From NCBI GenBank assembly GCA_015152565.1, contig SUTT01000012.1:1-46664 (forward strand): DNA of 46,664 nucleotides, written 5' to 3'. Source of the DNA: Cyanobacteria bacterium SIG27 (GTDB lineage: Bacteria > Cyanobacteriota > Vampirovibrionia > Gastranaerophilales > Gastranaerophilaceae). A model generated the notes under the pieces. The model was not told the origin of the DNA and searched no databases. It worked only from the letters and a program-made list of their open reading frames with translations. Below, in pieces: positions 1 to 16,681 of this stretch (the stretch's first letter is position 1; each line of letters begins with the position of its first letter). The position numbers and the translations under genes were made by a program.

Positions 1-19
1 CTAGTCGGAAGGAAGCGAT

Positions 20-1621
20 TCAGTTTCTTTGTAATTTGTTGTGAGCTCTTATCCATTGATCAATTTTATCTTTTTCCTTGATTTCAACTGATTCTACGTC
101 ATGTCTTACATAAAAAATTCCACCATGCGTTTTTAAGTATACTGGATCGTAATAGGGTTCAATATCGATTTTGCATATATATTTATTATGAATCTTATAA
201 AATTTTGTTTTTATATTTCCAATTGGAGAAGGAGTAATATTGTCTTTTATTGCATGGTCTATTGATAAAGCGAGACTATCTAAATTATTCTTGTTATTTT
301 TTATATCTTCTTTCAAGCCTCGTATTGTAGAATTATCTTCGACACCAAGAAGAAGTGTTCCCCCAGAATTTGAGTTAAGAAATGCACAAACTGTTTTAAG
401 AACCTTATGTTTCATTGTAGGAATATCTTCTTTTTTGCCTTGTGGTCTGTAATATAATTTATTGTTGCATCTTTTCTCATCTTGGGAATACTCATAAGCT
501 TGCTTAAATTCTAGTTCACTATTTTCACCTTTTGATATTAGAGTTAATATTTCTTTATCTTCGCTAATTAATGCTTTTATCTTATCAGATTGTCCAATTA
601 GTATATGATATTTATTCCATAGTTTAATAAATATAGGATCTTCAACACCTCTAACATTTCCTATGTGAGAAATTCTTCCTAATAAGACTCTTCTCAATTT
701 ACATTTTTTAAAATGTTCTTGAAAATATTTATCTGCGTTTTCTTCTCCATCTTTTTCCCATCTAAATAGTAATGCTCTGATATTTTTTATATAATCTCGA
801 GGTACATTAGTTTTTTTATTCACAATTAGGCCCGTTACAGATTGTCTTTGTATTTTTGTTTGTAATCGAATTTTTTGTTTATTAACTTCAAAACCATTAT
901 CTTCTATTATGCTATTCAAATCGGTAGATATAGAATTTTGAGTATAATCATATATTTCTTTAGGTAAAGTTTTTAAATTAGTAGATATAGTTATATCGTC
1001 AGCATATCTTGAATAAGTACATTTTAATGGTTTAACTAATTTAAGCATTTTTGAGTCAAAACTTTTTAAAATCATATTTGAAATTATAGGAGATGTTGGT
1101 GCTCCTTGAGGTAAAGCATTATTTGTACAGCATATTTGTGCAATTACGGTAGCAACATCAGAACTAAAATTGTGAGGTAATGCCATAAACATCCCTCTTA
1201 CACGGCCAAAATTTATAGAAGTAAAAAAATCTTTTAAATCAACATTTAATACATTATTTTTATTAATATGTAATTTGGCGTTTGGGCAGATTCCTTTATA
1301 AACAGTTTCTTGCTCCTTATTTTTATAATTTTTTTCAAAACCATATGAACATATTCTCGGATTATGAATTAAGTATAATATGTGTGCAAGATTTTTTTGT
1401 ATTAATTTAAAATTTTTTATTGGAGCAGTAATATCTCTGCTTCCACCATTCTTTTTAGGAATATTAAATTTAGTATATTTTTCTGTATCTGAAAGACTAT
1501 ACAAGTAATACCGAAGTTGTTTATCTGATATTTCAAGTAAATCGGCAACATCTTCTCTCGAAGAGAGCGCTTTAAATTTTTCTATTATGTCTTTAGGTTT
1601 TCTTTTTAAATTATGTTTCAT
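20..1621 (-). CDS. Retron-type reverse transcriptase fused to a C-terminal Schlafen AlbA_2 domain
   Basis: This 533-residue protein has two parts. Residues 1 to about 340 form a retron-class reverse transcriptase. NAKLH (114-118) matches the retron region X motif NAxxH. D128 in NVDLKDFF is the first catalytic aspartate, PQGAPTSP (171-178) is the primer-grip-side motif, YADD (206-209) is the catalytic pair, and SVTGLIVN (261-268) is the retron VTG motif. Residues from about 365 form an AlbA_2 (Schlafen-like, formerly AAA_4) domain, with GENSELEFK (365-373), GGTLLLGVED (420-429) and FYVRHDVES (503-511). In retrons the RT copies part of a partner RNA into msDNA, and a linked effector acts on infection. 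The fused AlbA_2 domain is inferred to be that effector. A fitting RNA gene lies 16 nt upstream. No strong ribosome binding site precedes the ATG, which is common for genes fused to a structured leader. I do not recall AlbA_2 among the standard retron effectors, but could not check. Confidence 0.88.
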   Translation of the reverse strand: MKHNLKRKPKDIIEKFKALSSREDVADLLEISDKQLRYYLYSLSDTEKYTKFNIPKKNGGSRDITAPIKNFKLIQKNLAHILYLIHNPRICSYGFEKNYKNKEQETVYKGICPNAKLHINKNNVLNVDLKDFFTSINFGRVRGMFMALPHNFSSDVATVIAQICCTNNALPQGAPTSPIISNMILKSFDSKMLKLVKPLKCTYSRYADDITISTNLKTLPKEIYDYTQNSISTDLNSIIEDNGFEVNKQKIRLQTKIQRQSVTGLIVNKKTNVPRDYIKNIRALLFRWEKDGEENADKYFQEHFKKCKLRRVLLGRISHIGNVRGVEDPIFIKLWNKYHILIGQSDKIKALISEDKEILTLISKGENSELEFKQAYEYSQDEKRCNNKLYYRPQGKKEDIPTMKHKVLKTVCAFLNSNSGGTLLLGVEDNSTIRGLKEDIKNNKNNLDSLALSIDHAIKDNITPSPIGNIKTKFYKIHNKYICKIDIEPYYDPVYLKTHGGIFYVRHDVESVEIKEKDKIDQWIRAHNKLQRN

Positions 1622-1637
1622 CTTTTTATTTTAAAAA

Positions 1638-1769
1638 GCAAGCTTAATTCTACTTATTGCAACTGTGTACCAGTATAAATATTTAGTAATTGTAAGGCTG
1701 TAGGCACTATGTTCCTAACATTGTTAAAACTCATTGCGAACCGACCAATGAAAAGTCAATTAAGCTTGC
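1638..1769 (-). ncRNA. Candidate retron msr-msd RNA with a1/a2 inverted repeat
   Basis: A perfect 12-bp inverted repeat, GCAAGCTTAATT, frames this 132-nt segment: a1 at 1758-1769 and a2 at 1638-1649. The a2 end sits 16 nt before the RT start codon, the usual msr-msd-ret order. Read on the minus strand, a guanosine just after a1 (1757) could be the branching G. The first hairpin pairs CAUUG (1750-1746) with CAAUG (1736-1732). A second spans 1730-1711. A third, possible msd, stem pairs 1696-1688 with 1664-1653, nine pairs with a three-base bulge. The structure was worked out by eye. The repeat, position and RT class are the strong evidence; the msr/msd boundary and the branching base are guesses. 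Confidence 0.7.
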
Positions 1770-1771
1770 AA

Positions 1772-2428
1772 TTAAAATGTAGCATGAAAATAGAATTTCT
1801 CAAAATATGTAGTCAGCTTTTTTCTGTAACGAAATATATGCTCAGCCACATGCAGTGCCAGGTTTTGTTTCATTTTAGAGTGATTTATTGAACGGCGGAG
1901 GCGGGAGTAAAGAACTTTTATCCACAAAGATTCTTCTTTTGTGTGCGGAAGTTTTTTGCGTTTTGTTTTTAGCGGTTTATCGACTACAAAAAGTTCGCCG
2001 TCATACAGATAAAAATAAACAGGTATATCGTAAAACCTCCGCATCTTGGCAGTTTTCGGCTTTTGTTCAAAGTGCGTTTTAAGAGCGTTCAATTGCCGTT
2101 CATAAATCATCTGCCGAAAATGTTTATAAAAATTCTGCATCGTCGCATCCCCGATATCTAAAAGAAAACTCGCCTGTTTTGACTTTACCCCGGCACAAAA
2201 ACACTTCGTTATCATCTCAATTTTTTCCTGCGAATGGAATTTGAAACAAAACGGCAGGGGTAAATTTCGCTCGGCCTTATATGAATATATTTCACCAACC
2301 AAATTCAACTGCCCGTCCTCAACGAGTTCTTGTAAAACGTCTTCTATCCCTTCGCCCATAATCGATTCAACATCTTCAAGTCTGAATGTTTCAAGCCTTT
2401 TCGCGAGTTTCAAAATCTTATTTTTCAT
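1772..2428 (-). CDS. Third protein of the Mu-like transposition operon, function unknown
   Basis: This 218-residue basic protein is not recognised by family. Its ATG overlaps the end of the MuB-like gene by 11 bases, so the two are probably translationally coupled and act together. The N-terminus (residues 1-50) reads like a winged-helix module (KILKLAKRLETFRLEDVES, then a short GEIYSYK hairpin). Residues about 70-110 could form a second helix-turn-helix (KSKQASFLLDIGDATMQNF). The C-terminal third is rich in K and R (KTKRKKLPHTKEE, YSRLRRSINH). A DNA-binding accessory role in transposition is inferred from context and charge only. The last 30 or so codons are AT-rich, unlike the rest, and contain the predicted retron promoter. 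Confidence 0.7.
   Translation of the reverse strand: MKNKILKLAKRLETFRLEDVESIMGEGIEDVLQELVEDGQLNLVGEIYSYKAERNLPLPFCFKFHSQEKIEMITKCFCAGVKSKQASFLLDIGDATMQNFYKHFRQMIYERQLNALKTHFEQKPKTAKMRRFYDIPVYFYLYDGELFVVDKPLKTKRKKLPHTKEESLWIKVLYSRLRRSINHSKMKQNLALHVAEHIFRYRKKLTTYFEKFYFHATF
1776..1803 (-). promoter_or_regulatory. Predicted promoter of the retron RNA
   Basis: Read on the minus strand there is a -35-like TTGAGA (1803-1798), a 16-bp spacer, and an extended -10, TGC plus TACATT (1784-1776). The expected start site, 6-7 bases on, is 1769, exactly the first base of the a1 repeat. This agreement supports both the promoter and the RNA 5' end. The promoter lies inside the last codons of the neighbouring transposon gene. 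Confidence 0.55.
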
Positions 2429-3107
2429 TCAATATTCCCTCCAAAACCGGCAGCGTAATCGTTTTCAAATTGTTCATCTCGGCAACGTTTTCGACTTTAT
2501 TTAAAAATTTCACAATCTGCCTAAACTGATTAAATTTTGTACAAACAAGTTCCAATGCATCAGGCTCAAATTCGACATCTGAAATTTCTGTCACGATTTT
2601 TGCCACATCATCTTTATTGAATGTTTCAAACTTCAAAACACCCAAAAGCCTGTCATAAATATGCTTATGCCGTTTGAGCTTTGCTTCCGCAAGGCTCATT
2701 CCGACAAGCACAACGGGAATCCCGATTTTATCGTGCAAATCGCGCACAATCTCAATCGCAGACGAGTTATTCAAAAGGAAATCAACCTCATCCACTACCA
2801 AAATCCGTGGCCGCTCCCGCAACTTATCCTCAATCTGCTTGAATAAAAGCGAAGTCAGGTATGTCGGCACATCATCAAGCTCCTCGACAATCTCGGTCAA
2901 AAGCCAACGTGCAGACATTTTGTGGTTACATCGCACATAAATCGCATCGTTATTTGTAATCCACCACATAATCGTTTGCGACTTTCCGAGCCCAAAATCG
3001 CCATACACAAGTGCCATCTTGGGCAGATTCGCCGGTGCGTTTTTGAGCGTATCCATCAAATCCACAAATCGTTTTACATTCTGCGTTACAACAAATTTAC
3101 GTTTCAT
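2418..3107 (-). CDS. MuB-like AAA+ ATPase of the transposon
   Basis: About 229 residues from the chosen ATG at 3107, preceded by a well-spaced GAGG; the reading frame is open further upstream but has no better start. Walker A is VYGDFGLGKSQT and Walker B is RILVVDEVDFLL. It resembles the MuB/TnsC/TniB group of ATPases, which bind target DNA and activate the DDE transposase. The start overlaps the end of the transposase gene by 11 bases and the next gene overlaps its end by 11 bases, so the three form one coupled operon in Mu A-B order. MuB-like is preferred over TnsC because the partner has a Mu-type N-terminus, but the distinction is not firm. Confidence 0.85.
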   Translation of the reverse strand: MKRKFVVTQNVKRFVDLMDTLKNAPANLPKMALVYGDFGLGKSQTIMWWITNNDAIYVRCNHKMSARWLLTEIVEELDDVPTYLTSLLFKQIEDKLRERPRILVVDEVDFLLNNSSAIEIVRDLHDKIGIPVVLVGMSLAEAKLKRHKHIYDRLLGVLKFETFNKDDVAKIVTEISDVEFEPDALELVCTKFNQFRQIVKFLNKVENVAEMNNLKTITLPVLEGILNEK

Positions 3108-5064
3108 ATAGACCTCGATATTCCTCACTTTGTTTGTATTCAGCAAGCCACACCCTGTCATCTTCACAGGTGCAGCCGTTTTTCATCAGCCATTCAAACT
3201 TTTCATACTTATTCAAAAACACAGGTGCACTCATCTGTACTTCTCTAGGTGTCGGCTTTTTAGTTTTTACCGGTTTAACTTCGATTACCTCTTGAAGATC
3301 TTCTTCAATATCCTGTTCAATAAATTTCAAATCCACATTCGGCAAGAATTTCTGCAATTTTTTAATCGTCTTATTTTTAAGCCGTTTTTGTTTTTGAATT
3401 TTTTGTTTCAAATCCTCAACATCTTTGATATAGCCGAGATGATAAGCCATCGGATGAGCTTTGGTTATGCGTTTTGCGGTACACAAAAATTGATTTTTGA
3501 CCGTGTAAACTTTAATCTCGGATAAATCAAAAAGCGAGTAGCGAATCATCACCTGAGTTTTAAGCCCATAAAGTTTATCAGAATAATAAAAAGTCCCGAG
3601 GAACCTAATACCGTTTTGATAAATCGTCTTGATATCAGCCGTCATCATCAAATCGTCGAGCCGAACCGTGTCGATTTTGATTTTCATGCGATTTTCAAAA
3701 ACTTCCGCAATCGTGTGATTTTTATCATTCGGACAAGTTTGTGAATTCTTAAATTCAAGCCACTTATCAACAAGCATTTTGACTTCATCAATCGTCGGGT
3801 AATAATTCGGCTTGAAATATTGCTTATGAAACTTCTCATTGCGCTTAAAATGCGCGGGTTTGTTTTCAATACTTGAACCCGAATAAGTCGGCAAAAGCTT
3901 TTCGAAACTCTCCTGAAACTCTTTGAAAAATCGCTCAATGACTTTGGCTCTCGCGTTATATGGTCGAGCAAAAACCGTTTTAATCCCAAGCCGAGCATAA
4001 ATCCCCTCAAACCCTGTTTCCTTAAAATCTGTATTCACAAAATACTTCGCCTTAAATGCTCTGCCGTTATCCTGATACACAATTTTCGGGATATTTTGTA
4101 AGTTAATTATCGCGTTACGCAGGGCAGATGCGATGCTTTCGGTATTTTCTTCGAGCATAATCTCATACCCGACAAGCGCCGTCGATTTCCAATCCAAAAA
4201 GCCGATTAAAGTTGCTCTTGTTGGTTTGCCGGTAAACGGATTTTGCACTAAAAATGCTAATTTATGCCCGTCTGCCACAAGCACATCCCCGACCTTAAGT
4301 TTTGAAATGTCGCGCAAAATATATGGTTCAACATTGTCTTTTAATGCTTTTTCACCATCTCGAGCCAACGTCCAAATGTCATAATGATTATCCCGAAACC
4401 AATTCGTATAACGACGAAATGTCATATCTTGAACATTTATCGGCCCCTCCTTTGACAAAATATGCTTGGTTATTGAAATTGCTTTGCCGACACAAAATTT
4501 GTTCGGGTGCAGCAAAATTTTCAAAAACACCTGTTTTTCATAATCGGTCAAAGACGTTCGAAAATCTGTCGCATACTCATATTTTGGCAACAGTAAATGA
4601 TAATCAGTAGTATTTCCCAGTTTGCGTTTCCAACGCTCAACCGAGCCGATTGAAGTTTTGCCAAGCACCTTAAAAATATGCGGATACAACATGCCGGTAT
4701 TGTAACTTTCAATAAACTCAACCCCAGCACGGGTTTTACCCTCAGGGTGATGTTTTCTGTATTTTTGCCACTCTCGAAGCAAATCCAAACGCGCCAAAGC
4801 GATTTCATTAACCTTAGTCGGAAGATTTTTGACAGGCAAAATCGGTATCAAAGCCGTCGATTCTGACGTTATTTGGGTCTTTTGCTCAAAATATTTTTCC
4901 TGTAAATCCAGCTCAATACTTGATAAGAGAATTTCAAAACTTTTTCCGCCCCTGACAATAATTTCGCGGGTGACATATTTATCACGCGACATCCGAATCG
5001 TTCGAGTGCTCACGCCTTTGAGGTCTGCTAATTCTTGAATTGATATGTATTTATCTTTGTTCAT
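3097..5064 (-). CDS. Mu-type DDE transposase (MuA family)
   Basis: The N-terminus (KYISIQELADLKGVSTRTIR) is a MuA-like winged-helix DNA-binding domain. The catalytic core is an RNase H fold with D in VLVADGHK, D in IVYQDNGRAF and E in KVIERFFKEF, a complete DDE triad (residues 271, 338 and 383 counted from the upstream GTG). A C-terminal beta-barrel-like region follows, then a basic tail. Such enzymes cut the transposon ends and join them to target DNA, helped by the downstream ATPase. ATG at 5064 is used because the conserved domain begins right after it; a GTG at 5082 is an alternative. The gene is clearly richer in G and C than the RT and HEPN genes on either side, a sign of transfer. Confidence 0.9.
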   Translation of the reverse strand: MNKDKYISIQELADLKGVSTRTIRMSRDKYVTREIIVRGGKSFEILLSSIELDLQEKYFEQKTQITSESTALIPILPVKNLPTKVNEIALARLDLLREWQKYRKHHPEGKTRAGVEFIESYNTGMLYPHIFKVLGKTSIGSVERWKRKLGNTTDYHLLLPKYEYATDFRTSLTDYEKQVFLKILLHPNKFCVGKAISITKHILSKEGPINVQDMTFRRYTNWFRDNHYDIWTLARDGEKALKDNVEPYILRDISKLKVGDVLVADGHKLAFLVQNPFTGKPTRATLIGFLDWKSTALVGYEIMLEENTESIASALRNAIINLQNIPKIVYQDNGRAFKAKYFVNTDFKETGFEGIYARLGIKTVFARPYNARAKVIERFFKEFQESFEKLLPTYSGSSIENKPAHFKRNEKFHKQYFKPNYYPTIDEVKMLVDKWLEFKNSQTCPNDKNHTIAEVFENRMKIKIDTVRLDDLMMTADIKTIYQNGIRFLGTFYYSDKLYGLKTQVMIRYSLFDLSEIKVYTVKNQFLCTAKRITKAHPMAYHLGYIKDVEDLKQKIQKQKRLKNKTIKKLQKFLPNVDLKFIEQDIEEDLQEVIEVKPVKTKKPTPREVQMSAPVFLNKYEKFEWLMKNGCTCEDDRVWLAEYKQSEEYRGLYET

Positions 5065-5103
5065 CGTACTTATATCTATCACTCTTCCGACCTTAAATTG
5101 GAA

Positions 5104-5170
5104 CTGTTTCCGAGTAATTTTGTATCATTCAGACACAAAAATTTAAGGACTTGATGTTTCTCGGAAACAG
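5104..5170. promoter_or_regulatory. Divergent control region with an 11-bp inverted repeat
   Basis: CTGTTTCCGAG (5104-5114) and its exact reverse complement CTCGGAAACAG (5160-5170) flank 45 bp between the transposase and HTH genes. The right copy also lies in the palindrome TGTTTC-TCG-GAAACA (5156-5170), and a third TGTTTCC occurs at about 5181. Repeated TGTTTCC boxes between divergent genes suggest operators for the HTH protein, transposase binding sites, or both. Confidence 0.55.
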
Positions 5171-5209
5171 AGTTAAGATGTGTTTCCCCAGAGAATTTCG
5201 GAGGTTTTT

Positions 5210-5476
5210 ATGAAGAAAAAAGAGCTACAAAGCATTGATTATATTAAAGAACGAGCCGATGAAAATTTGGCAAAGACTAAAAGCGTGTTTTTATATAGGC
5301 GGGAACTTGCGATACGGTTCGCTTTGAGGCAAAAAGAATTTACGCAAAAGAAACTTGCAAAAAGACTCAAAATGACCGAAAGCTATATTTCTAAACTCAT
5401 TACGGGCGAGAGATATAGCAAAGAGTTTGAGTTTTTTGTGAGGTACAACTTGGGGGTAGACTATTTGGGGATATAG
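5210..5476 (+). CDS. Small helix-turn-helix regulator of the transposon
   Basis: An 88-residue protein. The reading frame is open from a GTG at 5180, but ATG 5210 has a strong CGGAGG at the right distance and is preferred. Residues about 45-75 (FTQKKLAKRLKMTESYISKL) form a Cro/C1-type helix-turn-helix. It diverges from the transposase across a repeat-rich control region and ends just before the tyrosine recombinase, whose ribosome binding site overlaps its stop. By analogy with the Mu c repressor it may repress transposition; that is inference from layout. It could also control the recombinase. Confidence 0.75.
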   Translation: MKKKELQSIDYIKERADENLAKTKSVFLYRRELAIRFALRQKEFTQKKLAKRLKMTESYISKLITGERYSKEFEFFVRYNLGVDYLGI

Positions 5477-5484
5477 GAGGAAGT

Positions 5485-6024
5485 ATGAATATTGTCCAGC
5501 CGATAAGGAATAGAGAGGATATTGAGAAAATGAAGGCGGTCTTGAAACGCAAAAAGCGAGATCTTGTGCTTTTTATTTTCGGGATTAATTGCGGACTCAG
5601 GATTTCGGATATTTTGAAACTTGATGTAGGAGATGTTAAGGGCAGGGATTTTGTCGAAATCAAAGAGAAAAAGACGAAGAAAAATAAACGTTTTCCGCTA
5701 AATCCGGAGTTAAAGGTTGTGCTTGAAGATTTTGTAAAAGACCGCCCGGAAGACGAGCCGCTATTTATTACACAACAGGGAAACAGGCTTGATAGAAACC
5801 AGGCTTACCGAATTTTGAATAAGGCAGCAAAAACATTGAATCTACAAGACAAAATCGGCACCCACTCGCTGCGAAAAACGTTTGGCTACCACCATTATAA
5901 ACAGTTTGACAACATTGAACTCCTGCAGAAAATTTTCAACCATTCATACTCTGCCATCACCCTCCGCTACATCGGCATCGAACAGGATATTATTGATGAA
6001 AGTTATATGAATTTTTATTTGTAA
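5485..6024 (+). CDS. Tyrosine recombinase, catalytic domain only
   Basis: This 179-residue protein has the phage integrase/Xer catalytic fold: R in NCGLRISDIL, HSLRKTF (HxxR), a second histidine in FNHSYSA, and the nucleophile Y in ITLRYIG. It lacks the N-terminal core-binding domain of full-length XerC/D (about 300 residues), so it may need a partner or act on short sites. AGGAGG at 5476-5481 sets the start. It follows the HTH gene by 8 bases and is probably co-transcribed. Its role may be resolution of transposition intermediates, inversion, or integration of the element. Confidence 0.85.
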   Translation: MNIVQPIRNREDIEKMKAVLKRKKRDLVLFIFGINCGLRISDILKLDVGDVKGRDFVEIKEKKTKKNKRFPLNPELKVVLEDFVKDRPEDEPLFITQQGNRLDRNQAYRILNKAAKTLNLQDKIGTHSLRKTFGYHHYKQFDNIELLQKIFNHSYSAITLRYIGIEQDIIDESYMNFYL

Positions 6025-6768: not shown

Positions 6769-8580
6769 TTATGCAGAATATTTAGAGTATAAAAATTCAT
6801 TTATCTTATTTTTATTACTAGTAGTTAATAAAAATTTTTCATCTGCTTTATTAAATTTTGGAATCCCAAAATCTTTTATATAATTCTTTGCCAAAGCCTT
6901 ATACCCTTTAGAATATGATTTGCTTGTATTTTGTATATAATTCCAAAATACATCAGATGTTAATATTTTTTTTAGTATTAATAGTTCTTTATCGGTATTG
7001 GCAAAAACTGCATAACCACAGTAAAATAACATGTTTTCATCTTTTGATAGAATAGCAGTTGGTTTATCTGCGATATATGGTAGTAATATTTTCTTCCCTT
7101 GATTATTCAAGCCTTGTGTTCTTCCATATGCATACCACGCAGCATAATTACCTTTTCCTTTATCTCTGCGGAGTAATATGTCTTTTACAGCAACTAGAAA
7201 TTTATATGCTTCGGGGTAATTATTTTGAATAACTTTTTCATCTATAATATGATATTGATGATTCTTATAAAAATATGGAAAAATTGCTTTTTCGATTTTT
7301 TGTTCTAAATCAATTTCATTTTTCATTATGTTTGGCTTTGCAACATTAATACAGAGTTCTTTTTCTATTTTATAATGTTTATTATTGTATATTCTGTAAT
7401 AATATTTTTTGTCTTCAGAACACGGAGTAAAAAAATAAATGTCATTTTTTAAGGTTGCCAAACCATTTTTAATTTTATAATTACCCAATTTATTTTCCAT
7501 TTTATTGATTATTTTTATCATTGAAAGATAATCATTGTTACACATTTTCCATGGTTGATTAAACTTAAAATTATTATTGTTATATATTACACTTGCTGAA
7601 TCATCTATTTTTTCAATATCATTTATAGACAAATAGGATATTTCAAATTGAGACGACTTTTTACTTATTATAGTTACCGCAGTATAGTTAGTTGCTTTTT
7701 TAAATATTTTATTATCTTTATAGTCAAGAACTTTTATATGGTAATTTGAAGCAAGCATGTAATTTCGTAAGGAACGACCATTTATGCTTTGTAGATATGT
7801 ATTCGGTGTAATATAACCTAAAATCCCATTATCTTTTAATAAATTTAAACCAAGTTCAAAAAATGGAATATAAAGATCTACATTTCCGGAACTAGATGAT
7901 TTCCAATTTTTTAAATTATTTTTCATATATTCATCAATATTTTTTGAACGTACATATGGTGGGTTTCCTACAATGTAATCAAATTTTATATTTTTCAAAA
8001 ATTTATTATTTTTATCTAAAGAATCGCAGACTTTTAAATTGTATTTAAGCTGGTTATCATTCTCATGATTAAGTAGCATAATAAATCTATATAAAATTTG
8101 CGCTTTTATTATGCTTTTTTCTGAAATATCCATGCCGTATATATACTTCTTAAAAATTTCTGTGTATGAAAGTTTAAAAGTTTTATTTAAATATATTGCG
8201 CAAGATATTAAAAACGAACCACAACCACAGGAAGGATCGCAAATTTTACCAATAGGATTGCTGCCTAAAACATAATGAATAATACATTGTTTTATACTAT
8301 CTGGGGTATAAACAATCCCGTTAATTTTTTTATCATCATCAGGAATTAGTAGTTCAAATATCTCTATTAAATTTGATATTGAAGGCTTAATTTTCATAGA
8401 TTCAAAAACTGATTTTATCTTATCATATTTAGCATTATCAATATGTAAAAAATATGAAACAAAAAATCTGGAATTATTATAATTTATATTATTTACATCT
8501 AAAAATAACTTGATAATGCATTGTTCGCATATATCTACATCACTTACTATTTTTTTAATTTTATTAATGAACTGCTTCAT
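6769..8580 (-). CDS. Eco57I-type N6-adenine DNA methyltransferase
   Basis: This 603-residue methylase has GIVYTPDSI ahead of motif I (DPSCGCGSF, about residues 118-126, SAM binding) and motif IV NPPYVR (gamma-class adenine-N6 active site). The C-terminal half carries a TaqI-like specificity region (YAAWYAYGRTQGL, KKILLPYIADKP). AGGAGG precedes the start, which overlaps the stop of the upstream type IIG gene as ATGA, so the two are coupled. A second methylase beside a type IIG enzyme usually modifies the other strand of an asymmetric site. There is no nuclease motif in this protein. Confidence 0.85.
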   Translation of the reverse strand: MKQFINKIKKIVSDVDICEQCIIKLFLDVNNINYNNSRFFVSYFLHIDNAKYDKIKSVFESMKIKPSISNLIEIFELLIPDDDKKINGIVYTPDSIKQCIIHYVLGSNPIGKICDPSCGCGSFLISCAIYLNKTFKLSYTEIFKKYIYGMDISEKSIIKAQILYRFIMLLNHENDNQLKYNLKVCDSLDKNNKFLKNIKFDYIVGNPPYVRSKNIDEYMKNNLKNWKSSSSGNVDLYIPFFELGLNLLKDNGILGYITPNTYLQSINGRSLRNYMLASNYHIKVLDYKDNKIFKKATNYTAVTIISKKSSQFEISYLSINDIEKIDDSASVIYNNNNFKFNQPWKMCNNDYLSMIKIINKMENKLGNYKIKNGLATLKNDIYFFTPCSEDKKYYYRIYNNKHYKIEKELCINVAKPNIMKNEIDLEQKIEKAIFPYFYKNHQYHIIDEKVIQNNYPEAYKFLVAVKDILLRRDKGKGNYAAWYAYGRTQGLNNQGKKILLPYIADKPTAILSKDENMLFYCGYAVFANTDKELLILKKILTSDVFWNYIQNTSKSYSKGYKALAKNYIKDFGIPKFNKADEKFLLTTSNKNKINEFLYSKYSA

Positions 8581-11500
8581 GCACCCTCCTGTATATCCAG
8601 TAGATCTACACGATCAATTGTTCGTCCTTCATTTACGATTAATTCTATTTCTTTCTCAGATAATCCATATAATTTATAGCATAGATTATCTAAATTTTGC
8701 CATTTTTTATTTAGTATTTGTCTATATATATTTTTCTTAGCACTAATACTTTTTAGATATGCCATTTGTAAATCTGTAATTTCATCCACAATATTAGATA
8801 GCACATTGATTAATTCGGGAGATTGTTCTAAAACTTTAATTGGTAATGGTACTGGATTTAAAAATTGTTTATTAAATTTATAATAACCTCCAGACTGTGG
8901 ATTTGCTTCCAATTTTGCAAAAACAGAAAAAACGGTAGAATTTAATATTGCAGTGATAGATTTTGCTACTTCTATATTTGGATTATCTAATGTAATAAAA
9001 TTTACATTAGAATTGTCCATATACCCAGAATTTGCATTTACAAAAGTAGCAATTGTATCCAAGTGGGTCATTGGAACAATTATTTTATTTTTTGAATATG
9101 AATCTTGGTTATTTTCTCTTGTAAATGTATGCCAATAAATTCCCTCTCTATGTTCTACTTTTTCTTTTATTAAAGTCTCACATTTATTTAAATAATTCTT
9201 TGCCAACTTTGGCATTTCATCAAAGGGTATTCTATCAACTCCATTTTTATATGGGAATAAACAATATGTTGTTGTGTTTATTTCTTTAAAACAGTATAAT
9301 TTATCATTTTTTATTAAAGGTTTAACGATATCTTTTTCTAATGTAACAGTTTCTCCCACTCCATTGATGCCTGTTATTGTATTTGCATTAACCTTACAAT
9401 TTTGAAATTGGTATAATTTTTTCCATAAAAGTTGTATTCCTACCGATATATTTATACCTTTTGCGGTTTCTATGGTACCACATCTGACTCTTGCATTATT
9501 TAAAATTTCTATTAATTCCTTTTTAGCAAACGACCAAGTTTTATCCTTAAATTCAGAATTATTGATTGAACCATATTGCATATTTTTATTGTAATAATTT
9601 TCTAAATAGGATTTGGCTTGATTTTTATCACCTTTGATTAAATTATAGTTTAATTTATTTGATACATTTGATCCAAGTACAATAATTGCAACATATGTTA
9701 TGCGATTTTCAAATAAATCGGTGGCTTCAAAATCTATAATTTTAGTAACCTTATCGTAAATTTCATTACGAATATTTGTTCCATAATCTGTTTTAAACCA
9801 ACGTTTTTGAACAATAAAACTAAGACACCCACTCTCTGAAAGTAAAGATTTACATCTTTCAATAAATATGACTGCCAAATCTGCTTTGCCAGAATAACTA
9901 TTATAATGATCTTTTATATATTTATGCATATCCGAGTAATTATTTTTATAGTGCTTCGTCTCAACATACGGAGGATTACCTATAATGTATGTAAAACCAT
10001 TGTTATGTTCAAAAACTTCTTTAAATCCGTGTTTTATGTCAAATGGACGAATTTCATCAATTGCTTCAACTGGAAGTTCAATATCTATATCAACAAGAGT
10101 ATTTCCTAACAATATGTTTTTGTGGATATCTTTTAATATTTGTTTTCCAAATGCACCTACTTCAGTTAATGAGTTAGTATTGTCAATATCGATTAATTTT
10201 AATGCTAATGACATTTTTGTTACTTCTACAGCCATGGCATCATAGTCAACACCGTGAATGCATCGTATAAAAAGCATTTGTTTAGCTTTTATTGTCAAAT
10301 GATATGAATTATCGATTTTTATATATAATTCTTTATTTACGATACTGGAATCGTTATGGATAATTTCTATCATTTTTTTTGACAAAATATCAAAGCAATT
10401 AATTAAAAATATGCCTGAACCACAGCATGGGTCTAATATTTTTATATTTAATAATTCATCGATTGTTTTAATATGATCTAAATTAATTGTCTCTCTGCAA
10501 AGAGGTTGTACTAAAAAACTTGGAGTTGGGATAACTCCATTTGTTTTTACATAATCTGGTTTTAAATTTTCTTGAATTTTTCCCTCGGTGAAGCCTAATT
10601 CTTTTGACAAAAAGCCTTCATATATTTTAGCTATAATATCTGGATGTATTACGTCGAATCTATACGGACTAGGATAATATAATTTATTTATAAATTCTTC
10701 GAATATACTATTTTCTAGTACAATATCATCTAATAAGTGATCTAATGAAAACATTGCACCATCATAGTGTTCATAAAAATCAAAATAGCAACTATGTTTA
10801 AATTTTTCCCAAAAACCAGATTTATCTGAGAGATAGTTTTTCAAAATAAAGATCTGTTCTAATCCACGAGATTCACAAACTCGGATAAAAATTATTCTAT
10901 CAATAATTATTTGAATAATATAATTTAAAAAGTTCTTATTCTCAGTAAAAATGGCATTACTTTTTACTAATTGTTCAGCTAAAAGAAATCTAAATTTTGA
11001 CAAGAATTCGGTAAAATTGCTATCTAGGCTTTGTACCCCTTCCGCTTTTTCAGGTGTATATTCAATTTCAAGATAATTTTTATATACATTTTCTTTACTG
11101 AAGTGAGCGTATATAATGTCAAAATTATCCAAATATTCTTTATAAGTAAATTTCCGAGTGCCCAATGAAGCATCTTGTTTGATATCCGGAGTAAATGTAC
11201 AGTCGTAAATAACCAATTGAGAAAAATTCGATACGAAAGCACAAGGTACCATTGCAGACCATCCATATGATCTTATTTGAAATGCTGCATCTCGATCATT
11301 AAATATATCAACTTTTAATGATTTTGCATCAAGAAACGTTTTTATCTGTTTCCCATTTACGAAAGTATAATCTGGTTTGTTATGCTCTGATTCAATCTTT
11401 TCTAATCGTTGTGCCCATTCTCCTACTAATTTTTTCTCTTGCAAAATTTCATTGGTTTGCCTTACATCCCATCCAAAAATACCCAAAAATTTATTTAACC

Positions 11501-11609
11501 ATACCCTAATGGTTTCTTCGCTGATTTCTTCTAATCTAGAAGTATTGATAAATTCTTCATACTCACAGACTAAAACTTTTAATTTTTCTTTTGCAATATT
11601 TTTATCCAT
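8577..11609 (-). CDS. Type IIG restriction-modification enzyme (nuclease-methyltransferase fusion)
   Basis: A 1010-residue single-chain restriction and modification enzyme. The N-terminal domain has the PD-(D/E)XK pattern: PDYTFVNG with DAKSLKV about 15 residues later (residues 79-100). The central methylase has NGVIPTPSFLV, motif I LDPCCGSGIF and motif IV NPPYVETK. The C-terminal 350 residues fit a target-recognition domain. It resembles the Alw26I/Eco31I/Esp3I and Eco57I groups. Together with the coupled 603-residue methylase it forms a complete R-M unit for what is probably an asymmetric site. It is AT-rich and intact, with no frameshift. The site cannot be read from the sequence. Confidence 0.85.
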   Translation of the reverse strand: MDKNIAKEKLKVLVCEYEEFINTSRLEEISEETIRVWLNKFLGIFGWDVRQTNEILQEKKLVGEWAQRLEKIESEHNKPDYTFVNGKQIKTFLDAKSLKVDIFNDRDAAFQIRSYGWSAMVPCAFVSNFSQLVIYDCTFTPDIKQDASLGTRKFTYKEYLDNFDIIYAHFSKENVYKNYLEIEYTPEKAEGVQSLDSNFTEFLSKFRFLLAEQLVKSNAIFTENKNFLNYIIQIIIDRIIFIRVCESRGLEQIFILKNYLSDKSGFWEKFKHSCYFDFYEHYDGAMFSLDHLLDDIVLENSIFEEFINKLYYPSPYRFDVIHPDIIAKIYEGFLSKELGFTEGKIQENLKPDYVKTNGVIPTPSFLVQPLCRETINLDHIKTIDELLNIKILDPCCGSGIFLINCFDILSKKMIEIIHNDSSIVNKELYIKIDNSYHLTIKAKQMLFIRCIHGVDYDAMAVEVTKMSLALKLIDIDNTNSLTEVGAFGKQILKDIHKNILLGNTLVDIDIELPVEAIDEIRPFDIKHGFKEVFEHNNGFTYIIGNPPYVETKHYKNNYSDMHKYIKDHYNSYSGKADLAVIFIERCKSLLSESGCLSFIVQKRWFKTDYGTNIRNEIYDKVTKIIDFEATDLFENRITYVAIIVLGSNVSNKLNYNLIKGDKNQAKSYLENYYNKNMQYGSINNSEFKDKTWSFAKKELIEILNNARVRCGTIETAKGINISVGIQLLWKKLYQFQNCKVNANTITGINGVGETVTLEKDIVKPLIKNDKLYCFKEINTTTYCLFPYKNGVDRIPFDEMPKLAKNYLNKCETLIKEKVEHREGIYWHTFTRENNQDSYSKNKIIVPMTHLDTIATFVNANSGYMDNSNVNFITLDNPNIEVAKSITAILNSTVFSVFAKLEANPQSGGYYKFNKQFLNPVPLPIKVLEQSPELINVLSNIVDEITDLQMAYLKSISAKKNIYRQILNKKWQNLDNLCYKLYGLSEKEIELIVNEGRTIDRVDLLDIQEGA

Positions 11610-11725
11610 AGCTTACTGTTATAGTATCATGAATATGAGTTATTATCTTATTGTAAAAATGTTAACCTAAAACTTGAATATATTTCAATTGTGAGCAATG
11701 AATACGACACAACAAAGGGGGTCGT

Positions 11726-11958
11726 ATGGAAAAAGTCGGATTGAATATTACTCCAAAAGAGTTTAAGCAATTAAGCAAGTGGTCGAAAATATTTATAACA
11801 CAGCTGTTGTTATCGATTACTTTGTAGCCAGTTAGCCGGAAATTGAAGAATGTTACAATCTTTCACCCGTTGTTAAACATTTGCGAAATGATGCAGATGT
11901 TTTAAATGCATTCTTTATTGACCACGAAAAAGAAGTTGAAAATTTAAATGCCGTTTAA
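11726..11958 (+). pseudogene. Eroded small gene of unknown function
   Basis: A good ribosome binding site (AAGGGG) precedes ATG 11726, but the frame closes after 33 codons. A second frame continues with protein-like sequence (VVENIYNTAVVIDYF, then after one TAG, PEIEECYNLSPVVKHLR and FFIDHEKEVENLNAV) to a stop at 11958. A frameshift near 11780 and one in-frame stop would restore a small protein of about 75 residues. The family is not recognised. The rest of 11610-11987 shows only a 7-bp inverted repeat, ATACGAC/GTCGTAT, around 11702-11726. Confidence 0.4.
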
Positions 11959-11987
11959 AAGGTGTTTAATCGGTGTTCAAAAATATT

Positions 11988-12296
11988 TTAATATCTTGCA
12001 TTACGAGCAAACATTTCCTGCAATTCCTGCTGAGTAATAAATCGGTTATTATTAACCGGATTATATTGATGAATAAATTTTGATGCATCTGATAGCATTT
12101 TTATATTATGTATATTGCCTTTGCAATTTAGATAACTTGCATTTAGCCTATCAATTAATGCCTTTTTATCTTCTTCTGAAATTTGAGTGCTGTTTTTTAT
12201 CAAATTTAGACGTTTTTGAAACTCAATATCTGTGCTGATATCTAAATTTTTGAAAAAAGCTTCTTTTAAAATATCTTTTATTAATTCGTTAAACAT
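11988..12296 (-). CDS. Small hypothetical protein
   Basis: A 102-residue protein with AAGGA seven bases before its ATG. It is mostly helical and charged (MFNELIKDILKEAFFKNLD, ISEEDKKALIDRLNASYL), with a glutamine-rich C-terminal helix (FITQQELQEMFARNARY). No signal peptide, membrane segment or catalytic motif is seen and the family is not recognised. It stands alone, divergent from the small gene pair that starts at 12454. Confidence 0.55.
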   Translation of the reverse strand: MFNELIKDILKEAFFKNLDISTDIEFQKRLNLIKNSTQISEEDKKALIDRLNASYLNCKGNIHNIKMLSDASKFIHQYNPVNNNRFITQQELQEMFARNARY

Positions 12297-12360
12297 GCTG
12301 TATTCCTTATATTTTCTTGCATTTATATATTATATCACATCTCAAATTGGGCATTCATGC

Positions 12361-12408
12361 TAATTTTGTATCGGGATGATACGTTTTGGACACATATACT
12401 TGATGTTT
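12361..12408 (+). repeat. Second copy of the transposon-type leader segment
   Basis: TAATTTTGTATC (12361-12372) is identical to 5115-5126, and ACTTGATGTTT (12398-12408) is identical to 5149-5159, at nearly the same spacing (25 against 22 bases). Looser similarity continues (CCCCGAAAGAG against CTCGGAAACAGAG). Both copies precede plus-strand genes. They could be related promoters or operators, or an end remnant of a related element. Confidence 0.5.
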
Positions 12409-12453
12409 TTCCCCGAAAGAGTGATGAATGGTGTAGCTTGAAAGGAGCAAATT

Positions 12454-12654
12454 ATGGTTGAAAAAGATTACAAGTTATACGGAACAAAAATTTTAAATCT
12501 AAAAACACAAGAAATCGGATTGTTGATTTGTTTATGGGAAAACAAATTTGCTGACAAAACTATAGATTTTGCAACTTGTGTCGATAAAACCGGCAAACGC
12601 TACAATATTGAACTTGATAATATAAGAGGGTTTGAAGATGATTTTGAAAAATAA
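12454..12654 (+). CDS. Small hypothetical protein, first of a pair
   Basis: A 66-residue protein preceded by AAAGGAG. The sequence (YKLYGTKILNLKTQEIGLL, then DFATCVDKTGKRYNIELDNI) looks like a small all-beta fold, as in short plasmid or phage accessory proteins. The family is not recognised. Its end overlaps the next small gene, so they are probably translated together. It is transcribed from the region holding the repeated leader segment. Confidence 0.55.
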   Translation: MVEKDYKLYGTKILNLKTQEIGLLICLWENKFADKTIDFATCVDKTGKRYNIELDNIRGFEDDFEK

Positions 12655-12871
12655 ATTAACTAAAGAAACATTAGATATTCCATATTCTGAATTTAGAAAA
12701 AAGTTCGCAAAAGAAATTCAGGATGCGTTTGAAAGTTACCGCAAAACACAACTAAATAAATATTCTTGGAACTTCAAAGATGACAATTCTTTGGAGTTTA
12801 ATTTTTATTTTGAACTCCATTGGAATTTCAATCATTTTGAAATGTCTAACTGGTGCATAGAAAGAATGTAA
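12638..12871 (+). CDS. Small hypothetical protein, second of a pair
   Basis: A 77-residue protein from ATG 12638, chosen because AAGAGGG (12624-12630) lies seven bases upstream; a TTG at 12632 would add two residues. It overlaps the end of the preceding gene by 17 bases. It is rich in aromatic and asparagine residues (SWNFKDDNSLEFNFYFEL). Its stop codon directly abuts the stop of the convergent mrr gene. The function is unknown; a mobile-element accessory protein is the likeliest kind. Confidence 0.55.
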   Translation: MILKNKLTKETLDIPYSEFRKKFAKEIQDAFESYRKTQLNKYSWNFKDDNSLEFNFYFELHWNFNHFEMSNWCIERM

Positions 12872-13786
12872 TTATTCTCCTTCTATAAAGAAACCTTCAT
12901 CTATTTTCTTTCTTATAAAAATTGGTTCTATTGGTTTTACACCAATATTATGCTTTATCATTAAACTTGCTAATTGAGTACCATTAACTAAAACAATAAC
13001 ATTGCCTTGTATAGAAGATTTTTCAGCTAATTTTTTTGCACTTTCTATAAAGTCTGATGTTGTTATAAATACCCCTTTTTTAACAGATGAAGTTCCTAGT
13101 GTTGCAATAAAATCTTTCATATCTTTTGCATCAACTTTTTTATCTGAATATCTCTTTGCTTGAAGATAAATTTTCCCTAATCCTAATTCATCTTCATCGA
13201 TAATTCCGTCAATTCCATCATCATGGCTTTTAGGAGTTACAGTGCCAACCCCATAATTCATTTTTTCCATAACTGTTGTCACAATTCTTTCGAAATTGTA
13301 GGGATCAACAGATTTTAGTTTATCAATAAGCTCACTTCTTAAATTTTCATATAGTATCTTTTGAGCATATGCTAACAAATCATCTGGTGATTTTTGTTCT
13401 TCAACTAACTCAGATGTGTTTGTTTCGTTTTGTTCTGTATTAACAGCATTTTGGAAATCTTTAAATTCATCATATTGAAGCAAGAAGTTTTTTGTTATTT
13501 TATCTGGATTTGTTTTTAGTAAATCAATTCCTCGCTGCGTAATTTTTATTACACCTCTTGCCGGATAATCCAGTAAACATGCCTTTTTAAGATATGTTCT
13601 TGCCCACATTGCACGGTTATAATATGTAGCTTGCGTTTGGCTCGGCAACTTTTCTTGTCTATCTTCTTCTGACAATCCAAGCATATCTGCAGCTTGTTCA
13701 ACAATATCTCTGCTTTTGTGTTCGTAATTATCTGCTATAAGTTTAAGTGTTGGTAACATAAAATCTTGATAACTCGGTACTGTCAT
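12872..13786 (-). CDS. mrr: Mrr-type restriction endonuclease
   Basis: A 304-residue protein with the two Mrr domains. Residues 1 to about 95 are the winged-helix Mrr N-domain (SYQDFMLPTLKLIADNYEH, LPSQTQATYYNRAMWARTYL). Residues about 165-290 are the catalytic domain of the PD-(D/E)XK superfamily, with FERIVTTVMEKMNYGVG, then DDGIDGIIDED and the QAKRYSDKKV core, where QAK stands in for ExK as in other Mrr proteins. Such enzymes cut foreign or methylated DNA. AAGGAG at good distance supports the start. It is convergent with the small gene pair. The acidic linker (about residues 115-140) is unremarkable. Confidence 0.88.
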   Translation of the reverse strand: MTVPSYQDFMLPTLKLIADNYEHKSRDIVEQAADMLGLSEEDRQEKLPSQTQATYYNRAMWARTYLKKACLLDYPARGVIKITQRGIDLLKTNPDKITKNFLLQYDEFKDFQNAVNTEQNETNTSELVEEQKSPDDLLAYAQKILYENLRSELIDKLKSVDPYNFERIVTTVMEKMNYGVGTVTPKSHDDGIDGIIDEDELGLGKIYLQAKRYSDKKVDAKDMKDFIATLGTSSVKKGVFITTSDFIESAKKLAEKSSIQGNVIVLVNGTQLASLMIKHNIGVKPIEPIFIRKKIDEGFFIEGE

Positions 13787-13845
13787 ACTCCACTCCTTTT
13801 TCTTTTAGGGTATCACAAACATGGATTTGAACATATTTTTAACTG

Positions 13846-14202
13846 TTATAAAACGGGATTTGAATTAATTTGCCTTTTTATCCATTCCATAATTATAGAT
13901 ACAAGATAGTCTTGTTCGGTCGGGGTTAGTTCTCTGCCTTTTGGAAATTTGTGCCATTTTTCGATACAGCCGCGGCAACAGGTGGCAGTTGCGTGTTGAG
14001 CGATAAAAACAGGATGTCCGCGCATCGGGGTTTGTTTGCCATTATTTATTGGTTCTGCCGGAGCAACTCTATTCCGAATAAAATCACAGGCATGAGAATG
14101 GATTGTATCAAGTCCTTTTTCCTTGATATATTCAAGTCCTTTTGCCCGGAGTTTAAATCTGCTCCTGAATTTTGATTTTGTTAATCTTTCTAAAATGTCC
14201 AT
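13846..14202 (-). CDS. DUF4186 family protein
   Basis: This 118-residue protein matches the DUF4186 family as I remember it: KFRSRFKLRAKGLEYI, HACDFIRNRVAPAEP, KQTPMRGHPVFIAQHATATC, then CRGCIEKWHKFPKGRELT. The histidines and CRGC cysteines could bind a metal, but no function is established to my knowledge. It stands between the mrr gene, same strand, about 60 bases downstream, and the divergent gene at 14383. It is less AT-rich than its neighbours, which hints at separate acquisition. Confidence 0.8.
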   Translation of the reverse strand: MDILERLTKSKFRSRFKLRAKGLEYIKEKGLDTIHSHACDFIRNRVAPAEPINNGKQTPMRGHPVFIAQHATATCCRGCIEKWHKFPKGRELTPTEQDYLVSIIMEWIKRQINSNPVL

Positions 14203-14333
14203 AATTATATTTTATCACGTATATCTATGCTATAATAACCATAGAACGGAACATTCAAGAATCTTTAAGCTTAAGACAAAAAACAACTTTTTGTAAAATA
14301 CATACGGTATCTTAACAAATATTATAAATATAC

Positions 14334-14362
14334 TTGACAAATTTTAGGTTTTTAGAAATAAT
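14334..14362 (+). promoter_or_regulatory. Predicted promoter of the 14383 gene pair
   Basis: TTGACA at 14334-14339 is a perfect -35, followed 17 bp later by AATAAT (14357-14362) as -10. Transcription would begin near 14369, inside the palindrome that covers the ribosome binding site. Confidence 0.6.
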
Positions 14363-14387
14363 AGCATGTAAAGGAGGCTTACATGCT
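14363..14387 (+). promoter_or_regulatory. Perfect 9-bp palindrome around the ribosome binding site and start codon
   Basis: AGCATGTAA (14363-14371) and TTACATGCT (14379-14387) are exact reverse complements. The 7-base loop is AGGAGGC, which holds the Shine-Dalgarno sequence, and the start codon (14383-14385) lies in the right arm. As DNA it would be an operator over the transcription start, a natural site for the XRE-IrrE protein encoded next. As RNA it would hide the start codon, but only if transcription began upstream of 14363. Confidence 0.65.
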
Positions 14388-15129
14388 CGAAAAAATTAGT
14401 GAAGAATTAAAACAAAGAATAGCAAATAGCCATATCGAAGGCTTTGGGGAAGAATTAGAATATTGGGTTAAACAAATAAATACCCCTACCAGTAATTACA
14501 AAAATATGCTACCACGTGATTTAACAAATGGCATTCTTATTTCTTTTTGCGATGATAATTTAAGATACGATATTGTAAGACGTGGCTTTTATGAATTATT
14601 GTTATTGCTTGATTTAAATTCAAATCTTCTTTTTACATGCATGAGTGAAGATGCTCTTAACAAAATTTTAAAAGACAAAAAACGTGAAGTACCACATTAT
14701 ATAGACATTTTATCCCTTAAAAATAAAGGGTTGGAAGGTAAAACCCACCAAATAACTATTCCGGGAATTGATACAGAGTTATTTCCCGAGGATGAACTTG
14801 AACGACAATTGAAAGAATTGTGCTCAAATCTTGAATTGCAAACAGACAAAGAATTTAGACATTGTATAATTACAATTAAAAAAAGCGGTTATAATGTAGA
14901 AAAATTAAAAGCATATATTTTCAATTCTGCGTTAGAATTAGTTGAAGAAGAAAATTGGAGTCAATACCTGAAACCAAGTTATACATTCCTTGATGATACT
15001 AAAAAATCTAACGAGGTAGATATAATAAAACCGACATTAAAGAAAGATTTCTTAGTACAGGACAAAGATACAATGCCAGAAATTAAAAATGATAAAAATG
15101 ATGAAAAAGATGTTAATGAGGAAGAATAA
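14383..15129 (+). CDS. Unknown protein paired with an XRE-IrrE regulator
   Basis: A 248-residue soluble protein; the family is not recognised. AAGGAGG in a hairpin loop sets the start. It is helical at the N-terminus (LEKISEELKQRIANSHIEGF), with a central RYDIVRRGFYELLLLLDL segment and an acidic, lysine-rich tail (residues about 220-248) that looks disordered. It ends 6 bases before the IrrE-type regulator, so they form one operon. In many islands such pairs act as stress sensor plus effector, with the metallopeptidase cutting a partner repressor. That role here is only suggested by position. Confidence 0.6.
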   Translation: MLEKISEELKQRIANSHIEGFGEELEYWVKQINTPTSNYKNMLPRDLTNGILISFCDDNLRYDIVRRGFYELLLLLDLNSNLLFTCMSEDALNKILKDKKREVPHYIDILSLKNKGLEGKTHQITIPGIDTELFPEDELERQLKELCSNLELQTDKEFRHCIITIKKSGYNVEKLKAYIFNSALELVEEENWSQYLKPSYTFLDDTKKSNEVDIIKPTLKKDFLVQDKDTMPEIKNDKNDEKDVNEEE

Positions 15130-15135
15130 ATTATA

Positions 15136-16281
15136 ATGAAAAATAAATTTAGCGGTGAACAGTTAAAAATTGCTCGAACCTACAGAGGATTAACAACTGA
15201 AGAGCTTGCTCAAAAAATTGGAGTAAAAAAACAAACAATATCTTTGTATGAAACGGATAAAATTATTCCCGAGGTAGAAAATTTATTTAAAATAATTAAA
15301 GAATTAAACTTTCCAAGACAATTTTTCTTTCAAAATAAAAAAACTATACCAGCAGGAACTCCGTATTTCAGAGCATTGTTAACTACTAATAAAAAATACA
15401 GAGAACAACAAAAATTACAGAACCAGTTTAGAGCTCAATTATGCGAATATCTATTAAAATATATGGATTTCCCTGTTTTAAATATTCCAAATAATATTGA
15501 TTTTGATGGAGATATCGAGGCTTTTTCATTAAAAATAAGAGAGTTCTGGGGATTAGGTTTAGAGCCAATTACAAATATAATTCATTTGCTTGAAAAACAA
15601 GGACTAATTGTTTTACTTGCAAAAACAGATACTGATGATATTGATGCCTTTAATCAATCAATACAAATAAATGACGAGGAAAAATATATAGTTACTTTGT
15701 CTAAAAATAAACCATCTTTCTCAAGGATACAATTTGATGCAGCACATGAGCTAGGACATATACTTCTACATCCAAAAAGTGAAGATATTGAGGTTATTTC
15801 AAGAGAAGAATTTAAATTTTTAGAAAAGCAAGCCAATGAATTTGCCGCTTCATTTTTATTACCTAAGGAAGCATTTATAAAAGACCTTCCAGAACGATAT
15901 AGATACAGTTTAGATTATTATGTCAGATTAAAGAAAAAGTGGAATGTTTCAATATCAGCAATGATTATTCGTGCATATAATTTAAATTTAATGACATACA
16001 ATCAGTATCAGTACTTAATGAAAAAAATGTCACAAAAGGGTTGGAAAACACACGAACCATACGATGATTCAATTATAATTCCAGAACCTACAATGCTGAA
16101 ATATGCAATTGATTTGCTTTTAGATAACAATATTCATACAGTTCAATCACTATTAGAAGATATAAGTGAAGACTTAGCTTTAAATTCTGATGAAATAGAG
16201 TTTTTGTTAGGCTTAGAAAAGGGTAAACTTGCAATTCCGGATACAACAATTTCTAATATTAAACCTAAACTTAAGGTTTAA
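15136..16281 (+). CDS. XRE helix-turn-helix and ImmA/IrrE metallopeptidase regulator
   Basis: A 381-residue regulator. Residues 1-60 are an XRE helix-turn-helix (FSGEQLKIARTYRGLTTEEL, GVKKQTISLYETDK). Residues about 150-260 are the ImmA/IrrE (COG2856) zinc peptidase: HELGHILLH gives HExxH (about 203-207), and the downstream EKQANEFAASFLLP supplies the third ligand. IrrE-type enzymes relieve repression by cleaving a regulator when DNA damage or foreign DNA is sensed; the fused HTH lets one chain do both. The extra C-terminal 100 residues carry no motif I know. It probably controls its own operon through the palindrome at 14363-14387. Confidence 0.88.
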   Translation: MKNKFSGEQLKIARTYRGLTTEELAQKIGVKKQTISLYETDKIIPEVENLFKIIKELNFPRQFFFQNKKTIPAGTPYFRALLTTNKKYREQQKLQNQFRAQLCEYLLKYMDFPVLNIPNNIDFDGDIEAFSLKIREFWGLGLEPITNIIHLLEKQGLIVLLAKTDTDDIDAFNQSIQINDEEKYIVTLSKNKPSFSRIQFDAAHELGHILLHPKSEDIEVISREEFKFLEKQANEFAASFLLPKEAFIKDLPERYRYSLDYYVRLKKKWNVSISAMIIRAYNLNLMTYNQYQYLMKKMSQKGWKTHEPYDDSIIIPEPTMLKYAIDLLLDNNIHTVQSLLEDISEDLALNSDEIEFLLGLEKGKLAIPDTTISNIKPKLKV

Positions 16282-16340
16282 ATTTTGTCAAAAGTTGATA
16301 AAAATACATCACAATAAAACTTTGATGTTGTTTTATGATT

Positions 16341-16399
16341 AGATAATATATTATCTATATATTGACTTTTCGGGTAAAATAGGTTAATATATTATCTAT
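16341..16399 (+). promoter_or_regulatory. hipBA promoter and operators, predicted leaderless start
   Basis: A 15-bp repeat, TAATATATTATCTAT, occurs at 16344-16358 and 16385-16399. The first copy lies in the perfect 16-bp palindrome AGATAATATATTATCT (16341-16356). Between them, TTGACT (16362-16367) and TAATAT (16385-16390) form a -35/-10 pair with 17-bp spacing, so the -10 is inside the second repeat. The expected transcription start is at or next to the hipB ATG (16398), giving a leaderless message. The repeats are likely HipB binding sites for autoregulation. Confidence 0.65.
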
Positions 16400-16679: not shown

Positions 16680-16681
16680 AA

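Follow-up and report, generated by a model that had tools for sequence, protein, structure and literature searches.

A reverse transcriptase (RT) gene that is preceded by a perfect inverted repeat raises the question of whether the two belong to one retron and, if they do, what toxic arm that retron carries. A retron couples a template RNA and its reverse transcriptase to a toxic arm, and normally serves as a phage alarm. The DNA analysed here, referred to as the window, is a 46,664-nucleotide contig of Cyanobacteria bacterium SIG27 (SUTT01000012.1). The initial annotation proposed a complete msr-msd RNA directly before the RT gene; the Schlafen domain fused to the RT and the mobile cassette around them were absent from it. 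Our reading, to which we give a probability of roughly 0.78, is that the locus is a complete retron of a type XI-like clade, borne by a transposon, in which an RNase domain of the Schlafen (AlbA_2) type, fused to the RT, would act as effector and be restrained by msDNA.

The RT gene (20..1621, minus strand, ATG at 1621) encodes a protein of 533 amino acids in which all three retron-type RT motifs are found, NAXXH as NAKLH at residues 114–118, YADD at 206–209 and VTG at 262–264. NAXXH and VTG are hallmarks of retron RTs. In alignment A2 residues N114, A115, H118, T263 and G264 are invariant and V262 is nearly so. Profile searches identify the N-terminal part as a retron RT (PADLOC RT-TIR_XII, 5e-123; RT-Protease_XI, 2e-121), and a PDB search gives the protein of Retron Ec67 (E = 7e-58) as the closest solved chain. 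The C-terminal part is a SLFN_AlbA_2 domain (residues 366–513; 83..526, minus strand) that matches PF04326 (Schlafen AlbA_2) with 70.3 bits against a curated cutoff of 25.3. A profile of this domain matches SLFN11 at 1.3e-9, followed by the cores of SLFN14 and SLFN5. The E-x4-E...D acids of Schlafen RNases are present as E366, E371 and D429, the assignment of the aspartate, which belongs to a GVxD motif, being tentative, and all three are unchanged across three divergent RT-Schlafen fusions of 38–41% identity. The catalytic acids of SLFN13, E205, E210 and D248, have the spacing seen in the fusion (PMC5862951). Toprim, protease and TIR effectors were ruled out, as the C-terminus matches none of them: neither a fused Toprim nor a fused TIR domain was found in the 533-residue protein by the domain search and the respective query, and the domain search together with Toprim, protease, TIR and AlbA_2 queries gave no trypsin-like protease match in the C-terminus.

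To place the fusion we compared it with clade RTs found in other genomes, on plasmids and in viral contigs, and built a tree from 61 RTs, on which the RT-Schlafen fusions, three in all, group together (SH-aLRT 93, not starred). They sit inside a type XI-like set of 26 rows with a support of 96*, which also takes in RTs fused to a protease, a few RTs labelled as Toprim and cyanobacterial RTs that are not fused. Fused effectors elsewhere in the clade are Toprim, trypsin-like protease and TIR domains. Among approximately 100 clade RTs the AlbA_2 domain occurs only in the window locus/L002, L010 and L011. No further RT-Schlafen fusion was found in phylum-wide relatives (approximately 390 genomes), nor among the matches listed from plasmids, phages and viral contigs, for which C-termini were checked in the fetched loci. 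Used as queries against viral contigs, the RT alone and alignment A1 gave no match; the broader A2 alignment yielded 80 loci. Because the fusions found here are limited to three lineages that form one clade, RT-Schlafen is a single, rare exchange of effector within a lineage where such exchanges are frequent.

Several other members of the clade have their own unusual arrangements. An ORF of L040 (MT837349.1, 1469–3748) combines a clade RT with a C-terminal extension of approximately 380 residues, to which the Toprim, protease, TIR and AlbA_2 queries gave no match, and is preceded by a 14-bp a1/a2 pair; it is possibly another new effector fusion. A 757-residue protein of a cyanobacterial relative (L212, G453) joins a clade RT to a part that by eye resembles an AAA-type ATPase (GSVGVGKTSLVEK). 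The nearest unfused relatives, L037 and L039 on Geminocystis and Picosynechococcus plasmids, have the gene order RT, hypothetical protein and AAA/ATP-binding protein, and are likely to be multi-gene retrons of the same clade.

AlbA_2 was long described as a DNA-binding domain, and many proteins containing it are annotated as regulators. The locus could be a genuine retron in which this domain is not a nuclease but a sensor or regulator that binds nucleic acid or NTP, the effector being a host target or absent altogether. An AlphaFold model of the fusion, made from three-sequence input, is too poor for use (pLDDT 48.6) and leaves room for this explanation. We nevertheless consider it unlikely, since the three acids are kept in fusions as divergent as those described above, sequence comparison gives Schlafen RNase cores as the best structural relatives, and the partners fused to RTs within the clade are effectors. 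A nuclease is therefore the function that we prefer for the AlbA_2 domain, a prediction that rests on E366, E371 and D429.

Directly before the RT gene, the proposed perfect 12-bp inverted repeat around 132 nt is present as described. Its arms, a1 (GCAAGCTTAATT, 1758..1769) and a2 (AATTAAGCTTGC, 1638..1649), both on the minus strand, each occur once, and a2 ends 16 nt upstream of the ATG. When the 300 nt preceding the RT gene were dinucleotide-shuffled 3000 times, 9 of the shuffles gave a perfect inverted repeat of at least 12 bp with a span of 90–200; taken alone, the a1/a2 repeat is suggestive, not proof. The putative RNA runs from a1 through a2 (1638..1769, minus strand). Its 108-nt interior shows no extra stability against shuffles (z = +0.39; 128 of 200 shuffled versions fold as well), and of the three or more hairpins first reported only one, hairpin 1 (1751–1731), is backed by comparison, and this is left out of the minimum-energy fold. 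The whole segment folds with a z of -2, a value that comes from the a1/a2 stem because the interior is not unusually stable. The predicted msd template region (approximate borders 1650..1725, minus strand) is weakly structured both as RNA and as DNA, unlike many msDNAs. An Rfam scan of the window gave no match at gathering scores.

The promoter proposed for this RNA consists of a -35-like TTGAGA (1798..1803, minus strand), weak on its own, and an extended -10 element TACATT (1776..1781, minus strand) with TG at 1784–1783, giving a predicted start at approximately 1769. The sequence is present, but the combination TTGAGA-16-TACATT with TG (1803–1776) is by itself at chance level, with two sites against 3.2 expected in shuffles. 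It is the position that gains from comparison: across 63 relatives, -10-like hexamers are most frequent 6–7 nt upstream of a1, at 25% and 14% of the loci, against typically approximately 5% at other offsets, which supports a transcription start at a1. Of the three independent signals first put forward for the RNA, the repeat and the promoter position have held up, while folding has not, the one hairpin having been revealed by comparison alone.

Close RT homologs lacking the repeat would have spoken against a msr-msd. Instead L002/L005 and L006 to L011 all have a 12–14-nt a1/a2 pair in the same place and of different sequence, as in L008 (GGTATATAATTC/GAATTATATACC) and L011 (GAAGATACGGACT/AGTCCGTATCTTT). 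Pairs of approximately 9–18 bp, again differing in sequence, are found in most of the remaining type XI, I-C and XII clade members, including L043 (GGAAAAGTAGGAA/TTCCTACTTTTCC); a simple search found no convincing pair in L041, L087, L110, L128 and L138. In the relatives a1 is followed by a short linker and then a hairpin, with a loop end that is mostly UCG or CUG. In the window this is hairpin 1 (1731..1751, minus strand), in which TCATTG and CAATGA enclose a 9-nt loop. The covariance among related loci that the initial annotation suggested looking for is present: in nine aligned sequences 98.1% of the cells of the 6-bp stem are paired, five of the six pairs show two-sided changes, and there are 12 double-change cells compared to 3.4 in shuffles and 0–2 when the arms are slid. 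Alignment A4 gave no consensus pairs, its 5′ arms being shifted, and for this reason A5 and A6 were built as fixed-length blocks cut by hand around the hairpin, which biases them toward pairing; the slid controls and a held-out match in the window limit this concern. That match came from a covariance model of seven relatives with every RT-Schlafen retron left out, which ranks 1760–1726 first in the 46.7 kb (23.0 bits, E = 0.009; next 15.7 bits). The same model matches L096, L078, L002, L011 and L107, and misses L010, whose loop is one base shorter. Since the relatives have a1/a2 pairs of their own, hairpin 1 covaries and the held-out model has its top match here, the 132-nt segment is, as far as sequence can tell, a genuine msr-msd, in agreement with the initial annotation.

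The first base after a1, at 1757 on the minus strand, is a candidate branch guanosine. It is included in the sequence AATTGAY, which is kept after a1 in L010, L011 and L043 together with the G itself; several type XI relatives have no G at this position. Eco2-type loci have G directly after a1. In L006, L007, L008, L009, L082 and L096 an A is aligned with the Eco2 branch guanosine (ATTAATTTTTC, ATTTAACTTTC); type XI retrons may prime from a nucleotide other than G.

Promoter, ncRNA and RT-Schlafen together form an exchangeable cassette (19..1835, minus strand), defined by its contrast in identity with the flanks. Two copies of the retron in different genera are 98.7–100% identical over the promoter (100%), the ncRNA (99.2%) and the RT, while the transposon backbone on either side is 89–94% identical. 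The retron thus moves as a whole, its borders lying near 1836 and 19, and because these borders enclose all three parts they are independent evidence that the parts belong together. Between the two copies the RT has 17 synonymous and 4 nonsynonymous changes, from which it follows that selection maintains the retron. A rumen MAG contains the same retron, and this and the other relatives suggest that the host is of a gut lineage allied to Cyanobacteria (Gastranaerophilales-like).

The core of the carrier (1836–6020) contains an integrase, an Xre protein, a MuA/TniA-like transposase (3097–5082, minus strand), a TniB/MuB-like ATPase (2418–3167, minus strand) and most of a 218-residue protein encoded by a carrier transposition gene (1772–2428, minus strand). 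A dozen further genomes of the order contain this core at approximately 84–94% DNA identity. Common to these genomes is a 260-bp element downstream of the cargo (window -247 to 11), which in most of them adjoins a tRNA-Asn gene. The sequence past the RT was read on contig C15 through its join with C10, the 127 bases at the start of C10 (window 1–127) being identical to the end of C15. The slot between core and element (12–1835 in the window) holds a different, mostly defence-like cargo in each genome (L186 to L197), here the retron and elsewhere DUF4917, a Schlafen-group-3-type helicase, an AAA ATPase with DUF4435, Beta protein, Fic or a trypsin-like protease. The cassette is cargo of a Tn7/Mu-like transposon by tRNA-Asn. 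No clear candidate for the left transposon end was found near 11668–11981.

Further genes of defence type or of possible cargo were seen around these elements. L186 and L189 each hold two cassettes, and the 260-bp element is present there twice. On contig C15 a 934-residue KAP-family NTPase (L163, 6452–9256), absent in G194, lies between the 260-bp element and tRNA-Asn and is probably a second cargo. The RT-Schlafen gene of L010 (L223, G164:C1) is also close to a MuA-like transposase, and its neighbours include a Fic-like protein, Schlafen group 3-type helicase-like ORFs and a second RT of another kind. The defence-type genes at 6769–17788 of the window encode a type II methyltransferase and a type IIG-like enzyme (6769–11609), a Mrr-like type IV enzyme (12872–13786), a RmrT-like protein (14383–15129) and, by eye, a HipB/HipA-like pair (16398–17788).

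The cassette also bears on two weaker explanations. The retron could be decayed, with RT-Schlafen kept for another reason and an RNA that no longer makes msDNA, as an interior no more stable than shuffles might suggest; this is very improbable given that a1/a2 is intact, that ncRNA and promoter are almost unchanged between genera whose flanks differ by 6–11%, and that most changes in the RT are synonymous. That the inverted repeat is instead a by-product of the mobile element (a cassette border, operator or terminator) would fit its place inside a cargo slot, just past a stop codon, in AT-rich DNA that yields such repeats at approximately 0.3% per 300 nt, but is already largely refuted by the cassette borders, which lie away from the repeats at 1836 and approximately 19, by the shared architecture of relatives in other contexts and by the covariation of hairpin 1.

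For the msDNA-restrained Schlafen retron that we prefer, a course of events can be proposed. The promoter ending at 1776 would start the RNA at a1, which would pair with a2, while hairpin 1 would dock on the RT. The RT would prime from the 2′-OH of the G just after a1, presumably 1757, copy the msd into msDNA and, as in the family, stay bound to it. In the nearest example that has been worked out, Retron-Eco2, branching is at guanosine rG15, the RT-Toprim fusion works as an RNase, and its Toprim domain is toxic when truncated or cut free, while the full-length fusion is not (PMC12405507). By analogy, the RT-msDNA assembly may keep the fused Schlafen nuclease inactive until a phage disturbs or modifies the msDNA or RNA, upon which the domain could cut tRNA or other RNA, leading to growth arrest of the infected cell. 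Bacterial Schlafens are reported to be anti-phage tRNA-cleaving effectors in a preprint (Taboada 2025), according to its citation in PMC12839542. The whole unit travels as cargo in a Tn7/Mu-like transposon near tRNA-Asn genes.

The RT-Schlafen fusion is absent from the PADLOC 2023, NCBIfam 2026 and Pfam libraries, and a pairing of retron and Schlafen was not found in the open-access full texts searched. We lean towards an undescribed, transposon-spread retron subtype in which an msDNA-controlled Schlafen RNase, probably a tRNA cutter, is part of a single polypeptide. The fused retrons of this clade show one RT-msDNA sensor coupled to interchangeable toxins. If our reading is true, the Schlafen arm connects retrons with a family of antiviral nucleases that animals also have, and a strategy used both in animals and in bacterial defence has been wired to a retron sensor. 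With one RNA and one gene, RT-Schlafen is also a compact test system for the restraint of an RNase by msDNA.

Of the closest known systems, type XI (RT-protease) shares the RT clade (96*), with types XII and I-C nearby, the single-gene fusion of RT and effector and the layout of a1/a2 and msr hairpin. It differs in having a trypsin-like protease in place of Schlafen AlbA_2, and many of its RNAs in this set have A where the RT-Schlafen RNA has its candidate branch G. Type I-C (Retron-Eco2/Ec67, RT-Toprim) is likewise a fusion in which a1 is followed by G and then a hairpin with a TCGC loop end, and its Eco2 Toprim acts as an RNase (PMC12405507), but its RT belongs to a different branch and its effector has a different fold. 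The model of type XII (RT-TIR) gives the best PADLOC score, mostly through the RT part, whereas RT-Schlafen has no TIR domain. The Schlafen RNases SLFN11, SLFN13 and SLFN14 and the bacterial Schlafen defence proteins have in common with RT-Schlafen the AlbA_2 domain and the E-x4-E...D acids; here, unlike in those proteins, the domain is a single lobe behind a retron RT, and would be tied to msDNA.
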